Shown here: positions 42,582 to 48,699 of the stretch, one piece after another
Layout: the number at the start of each line of letters is the position of its first letter
Position numbering within the stretch: the stretch's first letter is position 1
Source of the DNA: Lachnoclostridium sp.
GTDB taxonomy: Bacteria; Bacillota; Clostridia; Lachnospirales; Lachnospiraceae
NCBI GenBank assembly: GCA_021770065.1
Contig: JAETRR010000023.1
Coordinates: forward strand, 1 to 64,000
DNA length: 64,000 nucleotides
Direction of reading: 5' to 3'
Translations under genes and position numbers: made by a program
Notes under the pieces: generated by a model
Seen by the model: the letters and a program-made list of their open reading frames with translations, nothing else
Databases searched by the model: none
What the model was told of the DNA's origin: nothing

Positions 42582-43675
42582 ATGTATCCGAAATGTAAGA
42601 CTTATAATAGGAAAAAGATTATTCTGATTTTTATCTGCTGCTTTCTGGCTGTCTGTATACTTACAGGCCGTCTGGTAAAGCTGATGGTATTTGAGTCGGA
42701 ATACTACCAGGAACTGGCAGATGATCTCCATGAGCGTGAGCGGAGTATTAAAGCGGCCAGAGGGAAAATTATTGATGCCTCCGGCACGGTTCTGGCCACT
42801 AACCGGACAGTCTGTACCATTTCCGTAGTCCACAGCCAGATTAAGGAACCGGAAAAAGTCATTGAGGTACTCAGCAGAGAATTGGAACTGGATGAGGAAA
42901 CAGTGCGCAAAAGGGTGGAAAAATACAGCTCTATTGAGCGGATTAAGACCAATGTGGAAAAGGAGATTGGAGACCGCGTCCGTGCTTATCAGCTGGAAGG
43001 CGTGAAAATTGACGAGGATTTCAAGCGCTATTACCCTTACGGAAGTCTGGCTTCCAAAGTTCTGGGCTTTACAGGCAGCGACAACCAGGGGATCATCGGC
43101 CTGGAAGTAGTCTATGACGAGTATCTCCAGGGAATCAACGGAACCATACTGACCCAGACGGATGCCAGGGGTGTGGAGATTGCGGACGCAGGAGAGGAAC
43201 GGGTGGAGCCGGTAGCCGGAAGCGATCTGTACATCAGCCTGGATTACAACATTCAGCTTTATGCCCAGCAGGCGGCTCTCAAGGCACTGGAGCAGAAGCA
43301 GGCAACTTATGTATCTATTTTGGTTATGAATCCTCAGAATGGGGAAATCTATGCCTGTGTCAATGTACCGGAATTTGATTTAAATGATCCTTTTACGTTG
43401 AATATGGATGTGGATACCAGCGGTCTTACGGAGCAGCAGAAGCAGGATCTCTTAAACCAGATGTGGCGGAACCAGAGCATCAACGACACCTATGAGCCGG
43501 GGTCTACCTTCAAGACCATAACGGCTGCGGCAGCTCTGGAAAAGGGCGTGGTTTCCCTGGATGATACATTCAGCTGTCCGGGGTTCCGGATGGTGGAGGA
43601 TCGAAGGATACGCTGTCACAAGGCAGGGGGACATGGGGCGGAGACCTTTGTTCAAGGGATTTGTAATTCGTGTAA
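42582..43675 (+). pseudogene. spoVD: SpoVD-like penicillin-binding protein, 5' part of a split gene
   Basis: Residues 1-364 of a class B PBP: membrane anchor (about 12-32), dimerisation domain with SKVLGFTGSDNQGIIGLE near 158 in outline, and the transpeptidase Ser motif G-S-T-F-K near 307. The frame then reads GICNSC and passes at 43676 into foreign DNA, stopping at 43694. Joined to 48039-48699 it gives one frame of 584 residues. Position directly after ftsI matches spoVD of Bacillus, the sporulation transpeptidase for spore cortex. As it stands the product would lack the SxN and KTG motifs and be inactive. Confidence 0.88.
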
Positions 43676-43698
43676 ACCGTACCCGATAAAGTGATCCC
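43672..43698 (+). mobile_element. Left end of the element (attL core and arm)
   Basis: Shared core GTAA (43672-43675), 8 bp, then the arm CGATAAAGTGATCCC (43684-43698), which is the exact inverse complement of 48014-48028 at the other end. Confidence 0.85.
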
Positions 43699-43746
43699 AT
43701 CAAAAAATCCAGTAAAATCAAGGGTTTTAGCAATTATGTAAAAGAT

Positions 43747-45207
43747 TTACAGGATAAAAAAGTACTCAATTCTAGCAGTCTCTTTATCGTATGTGATCTT
43801 CTCACAAATACTCCGTATAGCGTCGCATTTGGCCTCCAAGCTTGCGTTTTCAGAAGTTAATAGTTCAAGAGCATGATGGGTGTTGGTGATGAGCTGATTC
43901 TTGTCAAAATTCTCGGAGGTTTCCAGGTTTTGAGCGTGCGACAATTTCTTAGTGATGTCAGCTTTTTCAGCATCCAGCATATTTTTATAGGCTTTGTAGT
44001 CATCCAGAGATTCGATTCCATCCAGATATGCGGCTCTGATGCGCTTTTCTTTTTGTTCCAGATCCTTTAGCCGTTCTTCCAGGTGAGCAATAGGGTCTAT
44101 TATTAAGGGGCGCGCTTTTGTTATTTTTACATATTCAAAATTTTCATTTTGAAGTATTTGCTGCAGACCTGTGATTACAGCCTTCTCCATAATCGGGACA
44201 GTGCAGCGCTGCGTGTAATTGCATGTTCCTATAGTCTGGTTTTTGCAGTAAAAGGAAGGATTCTGGTTGGCCCGGCCGGAACGATAATTCATTGGTCCGC
44301 CGCAACGGGCACAGCGCACAAATCCGGATAACCAATGCTTGGCCGGAAGCCGTCCGTGAATTGGGCCTCGTCCCTTTGCGGCTTTAGACTTTGCTGCAGC
44401 AGCATCAAAAAGTTTCTGGCTGATAATGGGTTCATGTTGTCCGTCTGCGATAATCCATTCTTCCTCATCCTTTATCAGCTTCCCTGGTGCATGGGTAGTA
44501 TAGTTCCATCGTACCTTTCCTACATAGAAAGGATTTTCTAAAATGTATTCTACGCTTTGTGCTTCCCATTTCCTGCCTTTCCGGGTCGTGATGCCATTTA
44601 GATTCAGATATTTAGCGATTGAAGCTTTGCTGGCATTCTCGTAGACATATTTGTGAAAAATGAGCTGGACAAGTGCCGCTTTTTCGGGATTAACAGTGGG
44701 GGGAGCGTCATTTACACGATCATAACCAAATGGAGCGCAGGTCATGTAACCTCCCCGCATGGCTTTTTCCGTCATGCCTCGCATGACTTCCCCAGACAGA
44801 CGGATGGAGAAATATTCGTCCATCCATTCCAGTATGCGCTCAATCAGACCTCCCATGATACCATCTGGAAGCGGTTCCGATACGCTGACTACTTCCACGC
44901 CTGCTTTTCGGAGCAGGGATTTATAGACAATGCTTTCTTCCTGGTTCCGGGCGAAACGGGAGTATTTCCAGACCAGGATCACGTCAAATGGGTGTTCCCT
45001 GGATTTGGCTGTGGCGATCATGTCTCGGAAGGCCGGCCTTTTTTCTGCTTTCCGGCCGGAAATGCCGATATCCAGAAAGAAATGTTCCGGGGAAACCAGG
45101 ATATGATTTTCCTTTGCATAGTCAAAGAGCAGGCGCTTTTGTGCGTCCGGGGAAAGTTCTTCCTGCTTGTCGGTGCTGACACGGATATAACAGGCTCCGT
45201 TTTTCAT
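43747..45207 (-). CDS. Large serine recombinase of the element
   Basis: 486 residues. N-terminal resolvase domain with catalytic Ser in Y-I-R-V-S-T-D-K-Q near 12, then SRFARNQEESIVYKSLLRK near 88 in outline, which resembles SpoIVCA/TnpX-type recombinases. A recombinase domain follows (FGYDR, IAKYLNLNGITTRKG), then a Cys zinc ribbon (F-V-R-C-A-R-C-G near 303 and later Cys pairs) and a coiled coil (about 365-420). It cuts and rejoins attL and attR to excise the element. ATG 45207 is preferred over TTG 45228 because AAGGAGG is 8 bases upstream. It is read toward the left end, whose arm begins 49 bp past its stop. Confidence 0.93.
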   Translation of the reverse strand: MKNGACYIRVSTDKQEELSPDAQKRLLFDYAKENHILVSPEHFFLDIGISGRKAEKRPAFRDMIATAKSREHPFDVILVWKYSRFARNQEESIVYKSLLRKAGVEVVSVSEPLPDGIMGGLIERILEWMDEYFSIRLSGEVMRGMTEKAMRGGYMTCAPFGYDRVNDAPPTVNPEKAALVQLIFHKYVYENASKASIAKYLNLNGITTRKGRKWEAQSVEYILENPFYVGKVRWNYTTHAPGKLIKDEEEWIIADGQHEPIISQKLFDAAAAKSKAAKGRGPIHGRLPAKHWLSGFVRCARCGGPMNYRSGRANQNPSFYCKNQTIGTCNYTQRCTVPIMEKAVITGLQQILQNENFEYVKITKARPLIIDPIAHLEERLKDLEQKEKRIRAAYLDGIESLDDYKAYKNMLDAEKADITKKLSHAQNLETSENFDKNQLITNTHHALELLTSENASLEAKCDAIRSICEKITYDKETARIEYFFIL

Positions 45208-45470
45208 GGTATCATCCTCCTTGTACAAGTGTATGCCTGGTTATGGTCATTCTTTCCGCTGGAATGGCCGCACGCCCTCCCGGTTGTCCTGGTAAGAATA
45301 TTATGTAGCTGCCAACTATAATATAAGGGGTATATTTGCTTATTGTAAGTCCAAAGCCCAGCCTTTTGCTCCTGCTTGCGATTTTCTGTATCACTTTGGT
45401 CAAGGATATCTTCAACGGTGGTATAGTGGCGGATCAGTTCATCATTTATTACATCTATTAGTTGAGCCAT
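45208..45470 (-). CDS. Doubtful small ORF upstream of the recombinase
   Basis: A minus-strand frame of about 88 codons from ATG 45470. Its first 40 residues look protein-like (MAQLIDVINDELIRHYTTVE), but there is no ribosome-binding site and the rest runs across the recombinase promoter with unlikely composition. It may be the start of a truncated gene. Confidence 0.25.
45320..45348 (-). promoter_or_regulatory. Possible sigma-A promoter of the recombinase gene
   Basis: On the minus strand TTACAA (45348-45343), 17 bp, TATATT (45325-45320). A CATACACT at 45235-45228, matching the sigma-E -10 consensus CATACAnT, lies closer to the start but has no good -35 and almost touches the ribosome-binding site. 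Confidence 0.4.
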
Positions 45471-45605
45471 AGCTTAATAGGCAGAGCAGTTAAGTCTTCC
45501 AATCAGATCTGGGTTTGAAGCCTGGCAGCTTTATTATGGATGCGCCGCTGTAAACATGTACAACCCATAAAGCATAGAATCATAAAAAGCGAAAGGAGGT
45601 CCCCA

Positions 45606-45758
45606 ATGACCTACGGTTTCTATGTAAATGGTGAGAAAAGACCTCCTACCAAAGAGGAAAGAGAGAAGCTATTGGATTGTATGCTCCGATGTCTGGGCTA
45701 CGAAAAGAAAAAGGTAAAGAAACAGGAGAATTGCTCTTTACCATGTGAGAGTATATAA
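45606..45758 (+). CDS. Small charged protein, candidate directionality factor
   Basis: 50 residues from ATG 45606 behind a strong GAAAGGAGGT. Basic and acidic helix-rich sequence (GEKRPPTKEEREKLLDCML, ending with Cys and Ser). No family recognised. It is the only small, well-started gene beside the recombinase. Excision by large serine recombinases needs a small partner protein, so it is a candidate by position and size only. Confidence 0.6.
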   Translation: MTYGFYVNGEKRPPTKEEREKLLDCMLRCLGYEKKKVKKQENCSLPCESI

Positions 45759-45835
45759 AATTACGATAAAATTGCTTAAGAGGATTTTTAATGATGAATT
45801 GGAAAAAAATTTAAGATAATGCACATATTATAAAA

Positions 45836-45864
45836 AATACTTGAAAGTATTACACGCATATAAT
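45836..45864 (+). promoter_or_regulatory. Operator palindrome and promoter of the DUF4160/DUF2442 pair
   Basis: AATACTT-GA-AAGTATT (45836-45851) is a perfect dyad lying where the -35 would be; TATAAT follows at 45859-45864. The arrangement suits autoregulation by the gene pair. Confidence 0.5.
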
Positions 45865-45917
45865 ATGATGCTGTTGTAAAAATAATAATCTCAAAGGGAG
45901 AAAGGGGAGAAAAAGAA

Positions 45918-46169
45918 ATGCCAGAGATAAGCAGATTTTACGGAATAGTTATTAAAATGTTCTTTAAGCCAAAGGAGCATGAACCGAGCCACATCCACGC
46001 TTTATATGGCGAACATATTGGGATTTTCGACTTGCGCACAATGGAGATGGCGGAGGGAGATTTGCCGCGGAAAGCACAGGAACTTGTTAAGGAGTGGTTA
46101 AAACAAAATCAAAAAGAATTGCTTGAAATGTGGGATAGCCAGAAATTGCGCAAATTGCCGCCGTTATAA
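45918..46169 (+). CDS. DUF4160 protein, putative toxin-antitoxin partner
   Basis: 83 residues: PEISRFYGIVIKMFF at the start, then HEPSHIHALYGEH near 26, the hallmark of DUF4160 (normally H..PHIHV.YG). It is followed at 31 bp by a DUF2442 gene; the two families are regularly found as a pair and have been proposed as a toxin-antitoxin unit. Good ribosome-binding site GGGGAG before ATG 45918. The pair may stabilise the element. Confidence 0.85.
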   Translation: MPEISRFYGIVIKMFFKPKEHEPSHIHALYGEHIGIFDLRTMEMAEGDLPRKAQELVKEWLKQNQKELLEMWDSQKLRKLPPL

Positions 46170-46200
46170 ACGGTTCTTTGTCATATTTGGAGGTGTTTAC

Positions 46201-46470
46201 ATGATACCAAGAATAAAAAGTGTAAAGCCATTAGAAGGCTATTTGCTGCACGTTATTTTTGATGATGGGAAAGACTGTATTTATGATGTGAATGATGATA
46301 TAAACACAATAGAAGAATATAAAGACTTAAAAACCATTTATGGGCTTTTTGAGCAGGTGCAGCTTGACGAAAGCCGGACTTGTGTTTTCTGGAATGATTT
46401 TATAGACCTTCCAAGTGATGCAATTTATGAAAATTCAACAGTCCCACATGAAATGACGGGCTGGGATTAG
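46201..46470 (+). CDS. DUF2442 protein, partner of DUF4160
   Basis: 89 residues: IPRIKSVKPLEGYLLHVIFDDG at the N-terminus in outline, then FEQVQLDESRTCVFWNDFIDLPSDAIYE in outline, which is the DUF2442 core (LA/F..V.L......W....DL..D.LY). ATG 46201 follows GGAGGTG at 8 bases; the open frame to 46123 overlaps the DUF4160 gene. Probable antitoxin/DNA-binding member of the pair; this assignment is inference from the family pairing. Confidence 0.85.
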   Translation: MIPRIKSVKPLEGYLLHVIFDDGKDCIYDVNDDINTIEEYKDLKTIYGLFEQVQLDESRTCVFWNDFIDLPSDAIYENSTVPHEMTGWD

Positions 46471-46548
46471 CTGTTGAAAAATTACTGTTTTGCCGCTGTT
46501 TAATTGAGAAAGGAAGAGCAGGGAAAAGATTGCATATACGCAGAAAAA

Positions 46549-46697
46549 ATGGATAGTGCAAAAGTTCGGGTACAAAAGCTGATTGATATAATTCGGCAAT
46601 TAGAATGGGAATTTCCAGGCAGGCATTTTACTTTAGACGGTCATTTGTTTGGAAGTATAGGCGAGGTTATGGCAGGCTATTATTATGGGATAGAAAA
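46549..46697 (+). pseudogene. Truncated DUF6998-type gene
   Basis: Encodes IIRQLEWEFPGRHFTLDGHLFGSIGEVMAGYYYGI in outline (motif PGRHFTLDGHLFGSIGE), the N-terminal half of a DUF6998 domain. The expected second half (with HDA and IK motifs) is missing; the frame instead runs on through linker sequence into the next gene. Confidence 0.6.
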
Positions 46698-46729
46698 ATG
46701 GGGCAAAGGAGATATTTGGCTAATTGTCA

Positions 46730-46758
46730 TTGAAAAACGTTGTGTTTTGTCATATAAT
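46730..46758 (+). promoter_or_regulatory. Promoter of the small membrane protein gene
   Basis: TTGAAA (46730-46735), 17 bp, TATAAT (46753-46758), followed by AAAAGGAG and ATG 46780. It lies inside the read-through part of the DUF6998 remnant and shows that the next gene has its own start. Confidence 0.65.
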
Positions 46759-46779
46759 TGCGATAAAAGGAGTGAAAAA

Positions 46780-47235
46780 ATGGATATATTATCAATTATA
46801 TCATTAGCAGTTACAATTATACTTGGTGGATATGCAGTACATCAATCTTGGAAATACAATAAAGATACTGAGAAAATTTTTTCAGACATAAAGTATATGT
46901 TAGTCCAGCAAACCAGACTTTTGAATGAGTTGGAAAAAGGGGTAAGCATTGTTTCAAAAAAAGTAATGGTTATGGATTTGTCTAAAGATGAAATTGAACT
47001 ACATAAATTATGTGTGTTTAATAAGAATGATATTCCCCAAATAATGGATGCCATAAAACATTTGTCCATAAAAAACCAGTTTCTTAAAAAAATAGAATCT
47101 TTTTTAAATAGTGATGACACAACATGCAGGCATAACTTTCGGGGAAAAGCAGATTGTGACGAGGAAGTTAGTATAGAGGAGCTATATGCAATTCTGTTGG
47201 AGTATAACGTGCTGATGTCAATTAAATATTATTAA
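46780..47235 (+). CDS. Single-pass membrane protein of unknown function
   Basis: 151 residues: an N-terminal membrane helix (ILSIISLAVTIILGGYAV) followed by a charged helical cytoplasmic domain (YNKDTEKIFSDIKYMLVQQT in outline), and a Cys/His-containing loop near 110 (TTCRHNFRG). No family recognised. Although the frame is open back to 46504, a consensus promoter and AAAAGGAG directly precede ATG 46780. The anchor-plus-coil layout is common in small accessory proteins of mobile elements. Confidence 0.65.
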   Translation: MDILSIISLAVTIILGGYAVHQSWKYNKDTEKIFSDIKYMLVQQTRLLNELEKGVSIVSKKVMVMDLSKDEIELHKLCVFNKNDIPQIMDAIKHLSIKNQFLKKIESFLNSDDTTCRHNFRGKADCDEEVSIEELYAILLEYNVLMSIKYY

Positions 47236-48013
47236 GAGTGTAAATAAAATCTTAATCTCCCAGGCTAAGCTGGAGAGAATAGAGTGAGCAGTAGCGTAGA
47301 GGATGCTTGGAACAAATAAAAAAAGTAACCAAAGAGCAATGCTTTTTATGAGATGGAAGATGGCCTTCCGCAATCGGCGTGCAGGCGCAGGCAGCAAAAC
47401 TCTTATAGCTGCTGTAGCTAAAAGCTATGGTATTGAGTGTATAAGAAAAGGCGGTGTAAAAGTTGTCATGTCGCGAAGCTGAACGAAAGTGAAGAGCTGA
47501 TGGAGCGTCGTTAATGCTAACAAATGCAATCAAAACTGGAGAATTATGTGGTCGCCGGGATATAAGTTCACGAGGAACCTGCTACTGTGTGGGCGGCTGT
47601 CGGTGTTGAGGCTATAGGAGCGTGTGTCAGATATGTGGCGGCGAACAAAATATAGTAAAAACAGAGATAAATAGGGGATGGGAAACCGTCCTCTTTTTGT
47701 GTCGGCATAATGCTGGAGAGGTGCTGTGAACTCTGGATGTCCGGGAACTGGATGTGCGGCACTTGGAATGGAAGAATAAGCGCTCCCTCGGCAGCGTAAA
47801 AGTCAAGCAGCTGGCCAAGGCTTGGATGCTGGTTATCAGCATTAGGTGGATGGCAAATGCGGATCGGCCACCCGGAAAGACCTGAAAGCAGCATAATATT
47901 TTGCTATATGATAGCATAGTATACTTAACAAACGAAGTCTGCCCTTCCCAAAGGGGTATGTATTAATAGGATACCCACAGGGTATATTTATAGGAAAAAA
48001 GAGCTTAAAAACA
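47236..48013. other. Right part of the element without clear genes
   Basis: About 780 bp. No complete gene is convincing. One frame ends VHEEPATVWAAVGVEAIG... at 47654 after an in-frame TAA and may be the tail of a small peptide gene. A plus-strand frame around 47726-47882 has coding-like composition but is interrupted. A hairpin GGGGATGG/CCGTCCTC with a T run (about 47673-47698) is a probable terminator. 47951-47993 resembles the intergenic repeat at 42417-42530 in inverse orientation. Confidence 0.4.
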
Positions 48014-48038
48014 GGGATCACTTTATCGAATAAGGTAA
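48014..48038 (+). mobile_element. Right end of the element (attR arm and core)
   Basis: GGGATCACTTTATCG (48014-48028), 6 bp, then the core GTAA (48035-48038), after which spoVD resumes with TCCCGTTTTC. Confidence 0.85.
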
Positions 48039-48699
48039 TCCCGTTTTCATCGATATCGGCCAGCGTATCGGCGTAGATGATTTCTGCGGATATTTTCAGC
48101 AGTTCGGCCTCCTCTCCAAGACCGGGGTGGATCTCCCCGGAGAGGCAGGAACCATTTTTCACAAAAAGGAAAATATAGGCCCCGTGGAGCTGGCTACCAT
48201 TTCATTCGGGCAGTCCTTTCAGATTACGCCCATCCAGCTTGCAACTACCGTCAGTTCCCTTATCAACGGAGGAACCCGTGTAACGCCTCATTTTGGAGTG
48301 GAAATCCGGGATGCACAGGGAAATCTTTTAAAGAAGCTCAGTTATACCCAAAAAGAGGGGATTGTTTCCGAAGAGACTTCTGAGACCATGCGGTTCCTGC
48401 TGGAAAAGGTAGTGTCTGAAGGCGGCGGAAAGAAAGCGTATATTGAGGGCTACCGCATAGGCGGAAAGACGGCAACTTCTCAGACCCTGCCAAGAGGCAC
48501 CAACAAATACATATCCTCTTTTATCGGCTTTGCGCCGGCGGATAATCCGCAGGTCCTGGCCATGGCCATTATTCACAATCCACAGGGCGTTTACTATGGC
48601 GGAACCATAGCGGCTCCGGTAATACAGGACATATTTTCCAATATCCTGCCTTATCTGGGCATTGAGAAAGAAGAAATAATTACAGAAATTCCCAGTTAG
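48039..48699 (+). pseudogene. spoVD: SpoVD-like penicillin-binding protein, 3' part of a split gene
   Basis: Continues the PBP after the insertion: N-P-V-F-I-D-I-G-Q, then KTGVDLPGEAG, a KTG-box region reading GGKTATSQ (K-T-A rather than K-T-G) near residue 508 of the joined protein, and FIGFAPADNPQV. The final third aligns residue by residue with the ftsI product in this window. The first T of this segment completes the Asn codon of the catalytic S-C-N motif begun at 43674-43675. It has no start or promoter of its own. No PASTA domain, unlike Bacillus SpoVD. Confidence 0.88.

Follow-up and report, generated by a model that had tools for sequence, protein, structure and literature searches.

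The 64,000-nucleotide stretch of a Lachnoclostridium sp. genome analyzed here (positions 1 to 64,000 of contig JAETRR010000023.1, hereafter the window) contains spoVD, the gene for a penicillin-binding protein (PBP) of spore cortex synthesis, in two parts separated by a 4363-bp insert that encodes an intact large serine recombinase (LSR). Deleting the insert in silico rejoins the two parts in frame at the codon for a catalytic Asn. Judging from the sequence, we consider a compact intervening element of the skin type, one that leaves spoVD in the mother cell, the probable explanation of the insert (about 0.7). Its recombinase is a member of a clade whose moves have taken it to several mother-cell genes, above all cotJC and a SleC-like gene.

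Division of spoVD at its catalytic Asn codon

The 5' spoVD open reading frame (ORF) spans 42582-43694 and closes in ...GICNSCKPYPIK-stop. GTAA is present at both break points (43672-43675 and 48035-48038), and deletion of 43676-48038 yields a single frame of 584 residues that reads ...GICNSCNPVFIDIG... The restored joint falls in an AAT codon, the one for Asn in the catalytic S-C-N motif, and the core AA supplies its first two bases. An initial annotation of the window had placed the break at 43675/48039, with an in-frame joint at this Asn and a serine recombinase by the left end; all three points are borne out, the recombinase possessing all three LSR domains. The features that define the split are as follows.

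42582..43675, plus strand: 5' part of spoVD, ending with the AA of the split Asn codon; TIGR02214 match of 316.9 bits over residues 13-366
43674..43675, plus strand: AA, presumed crossover dinucleotide, left copy; the right one is at 48037-48038
43676..48038: putative intervening element, 4363 bp, G+C 0.411, delimited by in silico deletion at the shared core
43676..43698: left arm of the terminal inverted repeat, 23 nt
43747..45228, minus strand: LSR, 493 aa, with Resolvase, Recombinase, and zinc-ribbon domains; PHROG 95 integrase, 1.3e-110
48014..48036: right arm of the terminal inverted repeat, 23 nt
48039..48699, plus strand: 3' part of spoVD, open to the stop at 48699; TIGR02214 match of 208.3 bits for 48127-48699

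The two inverted arms are complementary at 20 of 23 positions (87%), for which the chance at a given place is about 1e-9 (binomial, reckoned by hand). In the circular form, AA is the only pair of bases between the arms, and this arrangement has the form expected of a serine-integrase attachment (att) site, attP, with an AA core. The recombinase domains all exceed their Pfam cut-offs and the frame is open, with the ATG at 45207 (486 aa) as the likelier start. Given the att layout, the shared core, and the intact recombinase, we count insertion by the element's own recombinase as shown at the sequence level.

The assignment of the host gene to spoVD, initially made from its position after ftsI, holds. 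TIGR02214 is the best model for both halves; its curated cut-off of 688 bits is meant for the whole protein. Because the neighboring first PBP also scores best to TIGR02214 (384.5 bits), this model alone does not decide the identity, and we considered co-occurrence with SpoIVA as well. By a hand tally of 397 family genomes, SpoIVA is present in 251 of the 257 with a second PBP versus 7 of the 140 without one; genomes count as lacking it if no match exceeds the level of the first PBP, about 1e-106. The rebuilt 584-residue protein matches the intact SpoVD of a sister species (L029) at 96% over residues 1-584. The comparison with related genomes proposed at the outset found spoVD uninterrupted in all 15 other species of the genus (84-96% match over nearly the whole length; in one of them, G011, a TGA is read inside the match) and the same insertion site in three further genera, described below. 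A second intact spoVD, which the initial annotation had named as a finding that would speak for simple disruption, was looked for in the window's genome and not found; the next match is the neighboring first PBP. Apart from the cut gene, the order mraZ-mraW-ftsL-ftsI-spoVD-mraY-murD-ftsW is the usual one (neighbors named by eye). As a separate observation, the third active-site motif of this SpoVD (48460-48477) is GGKTAT and not KTG, the first PBP next door has KTG, and GGKTAT recurs in 18 of the 18 SpoVD relatives caught by our search pattern among 80 named loci.

The spoVD insertion is not the lone case it had seemed. In three further genera (genomes G302, G161, and G103), segments of 5.0-8.0 kb interrupt spoVD at this very Asn codon, and AA is the core common to the same-codon insertions (L293-L295). 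The LSRs of these segments have the same Pfam domains but belong to a different family, tblastn at 1e-5 finding no match between them and that of the window. Since these three share the cut, spoVD is split at the SxN codon in at least 4 of the ~257 SpoVD-bearing family genomes, the window's included. In G265, spoVD ends 0.4 kb past the same point and is probably interrupted at the same codon. In G018 (L297, G018:C13), it is cut elsewhere, at residue ~170, by an 8.2-kb segment, in which three recombinase-like ORFs stand in a row (named by eye). Altogether, 18 genomes with weak SpoVD scores resolved into 12 contiguous genes (alignment gaps or distant matches), one contig break (G237), and five interruptions. 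An apparent split in R. torques (L254, span 2555 bp) was rejected, as the search had joined a neighboring paralog.

Relatives of the recombinase and their target genes

We collected 40 related recombinase loci outside the window at E 1e-100 or better (4 from the genus and 36 from the family sample), chosen regardless of target. Their identity to the window's recombinase is 38-49% (47% for the best-scoring relative), and no close kin were found in the searched genome and viral contig collections, including with a single-sequence query. At the same threshold, a clade member is present in 33 of the 397 family genomes, the window's included; the family-wide recombinase and SpoVD searches scored at most three candidates per genome, and further members are possible.

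To call targets, the DNA downstream of each recombinase was compared with intact CotJC and SleC-like references. Nineteen of the 40 relatives adjoin cotJC, at residue ~31, and 16 adjoin a SleC-like gene (SpoIID and peptidoglycan-binding domains), at residue ~293; the host fragment begins at most 151 bp from the recombinase stop in 32 of these 35 loci and 0.8-2.7 kb away in L108, L110, and L115. The other five targets are a CwlD-like amidase (L090), a PdaB-like deacetylase (L103), an M23 peptidase (L098), an AGCS transporter (L094, by eye), and one that is unassigned (L106). None of the scanned host fragments passed a whole-protein NCBIfam cut-off; labels of the SleC-like kind are based on domain content and the form of the gene. 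Within ±1.5 kb, these target genes were found near 27 of the 33 clade loci with flanks that long, compared with 2 of 15 other recombinases of the genus. Both control matches fall at residue ~65 of cotJC, a different site, which means that cotJC is used by recombinases outside the clade as well. SpoIVA is encoded in all 33 clade-bearing genomes (window's included) versus 225 of the other 364.

According to accessible passages of PMC3416734, cotJC and spoVD of B. subtilis are listed under sigma-E and cwlD under sigma-E and sigma-G. For C. difficile, PMC3789822 in corresponding passages places sleC in the sigma-K regulon, lists cwlD under sigma-E, and describes lower expression in a sigK mutant for the operons that encode CotCB and CotD, both manganese catalases. 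With mother-cell genes as targets, a recombinase expressed only in that cell could serve without loss of the element from the spore.

In a tree of the recombinases, that of the window branches off by itself, close to the clade's base. The SleC-like group requires 2 changes and cotJC 6, compared with 13.2 and 14.6 for shuffled labels; 11 of the 41 inner branches are without resolution. The cotJC gene looks like the older target, from which later switches may have led to the SleC-like, cwlD-like, pdaB-like, and spoVD genes.

The elements are 2.4-9.1 kb long where both halves of the host gene lie in the fetched stretch (11 of 40). The relative in G008 is a ~50-kb prophage between the halves of cotJC, with terminase, portal, capsid, head, tail, sheath, and baseplate genes; together with elements as short as 2.4 kb, it indicates that the clade spans full phages to minimal elements. 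The skin-like interpretation of the initial annotation is therefore strengthened in part, by recombinase relatives situated at spore genes, and in part has to be revised, as those relatives are compact elements (2.4-9 kb) and at least one ~50-kb cotJC prophage and not the sigK skin. By blastp among the 12 elements with known ends (window's included), the recombinase is the sole gene common to nearly all. Removal of the insert restores the frame in 16 of the 18 split genes tried, under a lenient test that takes as joint any dinucleotide shared up to 45 nt from either edge and leaves the joints of L293 and L105 ambiguous. No in-frame joint was obtained in L088 and L118; the cotJC piece ends again near residue 65 in both, and we read them as cut twice. 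Several apparent sites are seen in cotJC (L127-L142, L023, L027, L088, and L116), at residues ~31, ~65, and further C-terminal, and some copies are seemingly cut twice.

Another split gene of the window's genome allowed selection to be examined. A SleC-like gene is split at residue ~229 by another LSR in the window's genome (G000; contigs C1 and C98) and in two other species (G005 and G007), the element of G007 being in reverse orientation. The ratio of nonsynonymous to synonymous substitution (dN/dS) was measurable in 4 of 6 pair-by-half comparisons: 0.028-0.035 for the N-terminal half (three pairs) and 0.025 for the C-terminal half (one pair, the other two being saturated). Intact genes gave 0.025-0.053 where measurable, and the SleC-like halves look conserved by selection despite the split. 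Between G000 and G005, dS is 0.62 for the LSR in this gene and 0.85-1.08 for the host halves, a pattern near vertical descent, with re-invasion as a further possibility.

A broader proposal, to which we would give an even chance, is that the elements work as introns at the DNA level in mother-cell genes. The clade would have switched repeatedly among cotJC, SleC-like, cwlD-like, pdaB-like, and spoVD genes, whose function is required solely in a cell soon to die. A second, distant LSR family would have converged on the catalytic codon of spoVD, and the host would need separate programmed excisions of at least the spoVD and SleC-like inserts to form a working, germinable spore.

Candidate control signals and competing readings

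The remaining features of the insert, with the candidate signals, are the following.

45204..45470, minus strand: ORF, 88 aa, no Pfam or PHROG match
45228..45235, minus strand: CATACACT, sigma-E-type -10 box, 28 nt before the recombinase ATG
45558-45563, plus strand: conserved GTACAA before the small gene
45573..45580, plus strand: CATAGAAT, sigma-E/K-type -10-like box (7 of 8) before the small gene
45606..45758, plus strand: small divergent gene, 50 aa; hidden Markov model (HMM) E 2.5e-9, its own sequence being among the three seeds of the model
45918..46169, plus strand: DUF4160 protein, DhiT-toxin-like; 91.6 bits, under the NCBIfam cut-off of 100
46201..46470, plus strand: DUF2442 protein (domain match), adjoining the DUF4160 gene
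46504..47235, plus strand: cargo ORF with a DUF6998 stretch (domain match)
47355..47471, plus strand: group II intron D1-D4 fragment (RF01999, 90.5 bits)

The sigma-E -10 consensus is CATACAHT. We searched for boxes starting 20-45 nt before the start codon, with the window counted in and L122 dropped for want of upstream DNA. The exact box CATAYAHT precedes 10 of 40 recombinase genes versus 3 of 360 among the remaining ORFs of these loci (mean 0.32 and maximum 3 in dinucleotide shuffles), and a 7-of-8 box precedes 22 of 40 versus 47 of 360. The string TATTTTT lies ~13-14 nt upstream of the -10 box in several recombinase genes (by eye). The sigma-E and sigma-K -10 elements of C. difficile are described as very similar, the -35 being ATA for sigma-E and AC for sigma-K (passages of PMC3789822).

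Genes of a small family (about 46-68 aa) were recognized with an iterated HMM, within the 6 kb searched, upstream of 19 of the 41 recombinases, and all 19 are on the strand opposite the recombinase. After the recombinase, this is the second commonest gene in the elements. The 50-aa protein of the window is without a Pfam or PHROG match, and one weak PHROG match was obtained among five family proteins. In a promoter set of 21 (the 19 above threshold and two below), the word G[TG][AC]CA followed by CATA precedes 16 small genes (shuffled mean 0.3) and CATANNNT precedes 17 (shuffled mean 3.6); these figures overstate the case somewhat because the patterns were chosen after viewing the sequences. 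A sigma-K promoter consists of AC, 16-17 nt, and CATA. Such a promoter before the small gene was rejected, as this spacing does not fit the conserved distance from GTACAA to CATA. A SpoIIID site there is possible, and we make no claim for it. Just upstream of the small gene, L087 and L090 contain what appears by eye to be a tRNA-like 3' end, and a fainter similar stretch lies in the window near 45490-45530.

Other kinds of controller or carrier were rejected. Rfam gives the group II intron fragment as the sole candidate for a structured RNA, with no other match up to E 1 in 43600-48200, and no reverse transcriptase was found among the element ORFs scanned. The same scan (Pfam and PHROG) detected no phage structural gene, which disfavors a prophage, and no tRNA, such as would flank a tRNA-bounded island, was found in the window.

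The promoter boxes, the conserved small gene, and selection on another split gene of this genome lead us to infer excision in the mother cell. The element's own serine recombinase would have inserted it at a conserved site of spoVD, and the split would be silent in growing cells because they do not need SpoVD. During sporulation, mother-cell sigma-E would turn on the recombinase and the small divergent protein, which together would join the two AA cores and release a circle, so that spoVD, including its catalytic Asn, would be rebuilt in time for cortex synthesis. The element would stay in the spore chromosome and be inherited, as the example of skin suggests. The genome encodes sigma factors E, F, G, and K and SpoIVA, all uninterrupted. 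SigE and SigK score above both of their models and SigG above one of two; SigF is above the SigF/SigG model, yet 6 bits under the SigF model. Elsewhere in the family, two or three SpoIVA matches were seen in each of G144, G136, G244, G310, and G231, where split, duplicated, or contig-end copies are possible.

Several points weigh against excision in the mother cell. Upstream of 22 of the 41 recombinases the small gene was not recognized. The HMM threshold is passed in 6 of the 12 elements whose ends are known, and 4 others have a match only under it; the product of the small gene is a candidate recombination directionality (excision) factor, a role that is a guess. Even a 7-of-8 -10 box is lacking in 18 of the 40 recombinase genes. 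The 88-aa ORF is possibly a decayed ImmA/IrrE-type fragment, judged by eye only, and the insert also holds the group II intron fragment. The spoVD halves give dN/dS of 0.026 and 0.029 against G005, values that, with one genome available for the species, may predate the insertion.

That single genome also leaves room for an ordinary disruption, in which a gene that can be spared in gut growth has been broken, SpoVD function and normal spores have been lost, and excision is rare or absent. The only spoVD copy found is split, and cotJC of the same genome (L302, G000:C124:587-994) is cut at residue 136, beside a fragment of a DUF4368-type recombinase at the contig end; a broken cotJC would fit a lineage losing sporulation. 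Accessible passages of PMC10083194 attribute the DUF4368 domain to most LSRs of a multi-targeting clade. On the other side are a recombinase, inverted arms, and core that are all intact, and uninterrupted sporulation sigma genes and spoIVA. The clade lies mostly beside mother-cell genes, in genomes of the family sample that all encode SpoIVA, the SleC-like gene split in three species is under strong purifying selection in the measurable comparisons, and the divergence of its LSR is somewhat below that of the host halves. We regard simple disruption as unlikely, and as less likely than the skin-type reading.

Excision might also occur outside development, with a low level of recombinase in all cells and a small subpopulation with intact spoVD that alone can sporulate; we think this improbable. 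The recombinases of SP-beta and of the C. difficile skin are constitutive according to accessible parts of PMC5595907, control residing in the directionality factor, and the promoter of the window's recombinase consists of the -10 box, without a clear -35. The small genes score poorly for such a box, with 2 of 21 preceded by an exact one and 7 of 21 by one that matches at 7 or more positions. Against this stand the excess of exact sigma-E-type boxes in the clade over the control and the G[TG][AC]CA-then-CATA block, a pattern picked post hoc. A wrong joining of the halves or the insert in assembly or binning is very improbable. The genome is a draft of 145 contigs with 92.5% completeness, but both joints lie within one 95-kb contig with the usual division-cluster genes on either side (names by eye), they share the core and inverted arms, and the same spoVD codon is cut in three other genera.

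Relation to known developmental excision systems

Descriptions of developmental DNA excision so far cover few spore genes, for the most part strain by strain. The many Lachnospiraceae genomes in which the clade adjoins mother-cell genes suggest that gut spore formers commonly undergo rearrangement of this kind, and spoVD would place the switch on cortex synthesis itself, on a catalytic residue. Whether sporulation of these commensals depends on DNA excision, and whether their poor sporulation in culture stems from missing excision, are testable questions. The clade also constitutes a set of compact recombinase/att pairs with a candidate excision factor. Among the matches listed in a search of the open-access literature, no paper described spoVD, a SleC gene, or cotJC as host to an intervening element. 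In the experiments that passages of PMC3715440 describe, ICEBs1 sat in spoVD of B. subtilis, a secondary site for it, and its excision was not detectable.

Like the sigK skin (SpoIVCA in B. subtilis; CD1231/CD1234 in C. difficile, of which CD1234 is listed under sigma-E in a passage of PMC3789822), the present insert is a serine-recombinase element that splits a mother-cell sporulation gene in frame. Unlike it, the host is a cortex PBP gene and not a sigma factor gene, sigK being intact here, and the element is 4.4 kb long without phage structural genes; we set it apart from SpoIVCA on these grounds, without sequence comparison. According to accessible parts of PMC5595907, gin in gerE of B. 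cereus ATCC10987 is likewise a non-phage element, with a serine recombinase, GirX as a further factor, and a predicted diadenine cleavage site, but it is 28.6 kb long, has three recombinases, was tested experimentally, and occupies another gene in another genus. The yin element in yabG of C. botulinum V73 also interrupts a conserved mother-cell gene and was seen both integrated and circular, whereas it is prophage-like and reported to be dispensable for sporulation (passages of PMC10747680). Late spore genes are hosts to SP-beta in spsM, where excision rebuilds the gene in sporulation (as described in part of PMC4191935), and to vfbin in spoVFB (passages of PMC10747680 and PMC5595907); both occupy other genes in Bacillus hosts, and SP-beta is a prophage. 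A cotJC-like gene as a phage neighbor is already on record, since the attR of prophage phi027 in C. difficile R20291 lies beside a CotJC-like manganese catalase gene; accessible passages of PMC11222575 report it as adjacent and not splitting, and claim no developmental role. Skin-type elements are thus known, and what is new is spoVD as a host gene, a compact and recurrent variant, and the comparative evidence on the targets of its recombinase clade.

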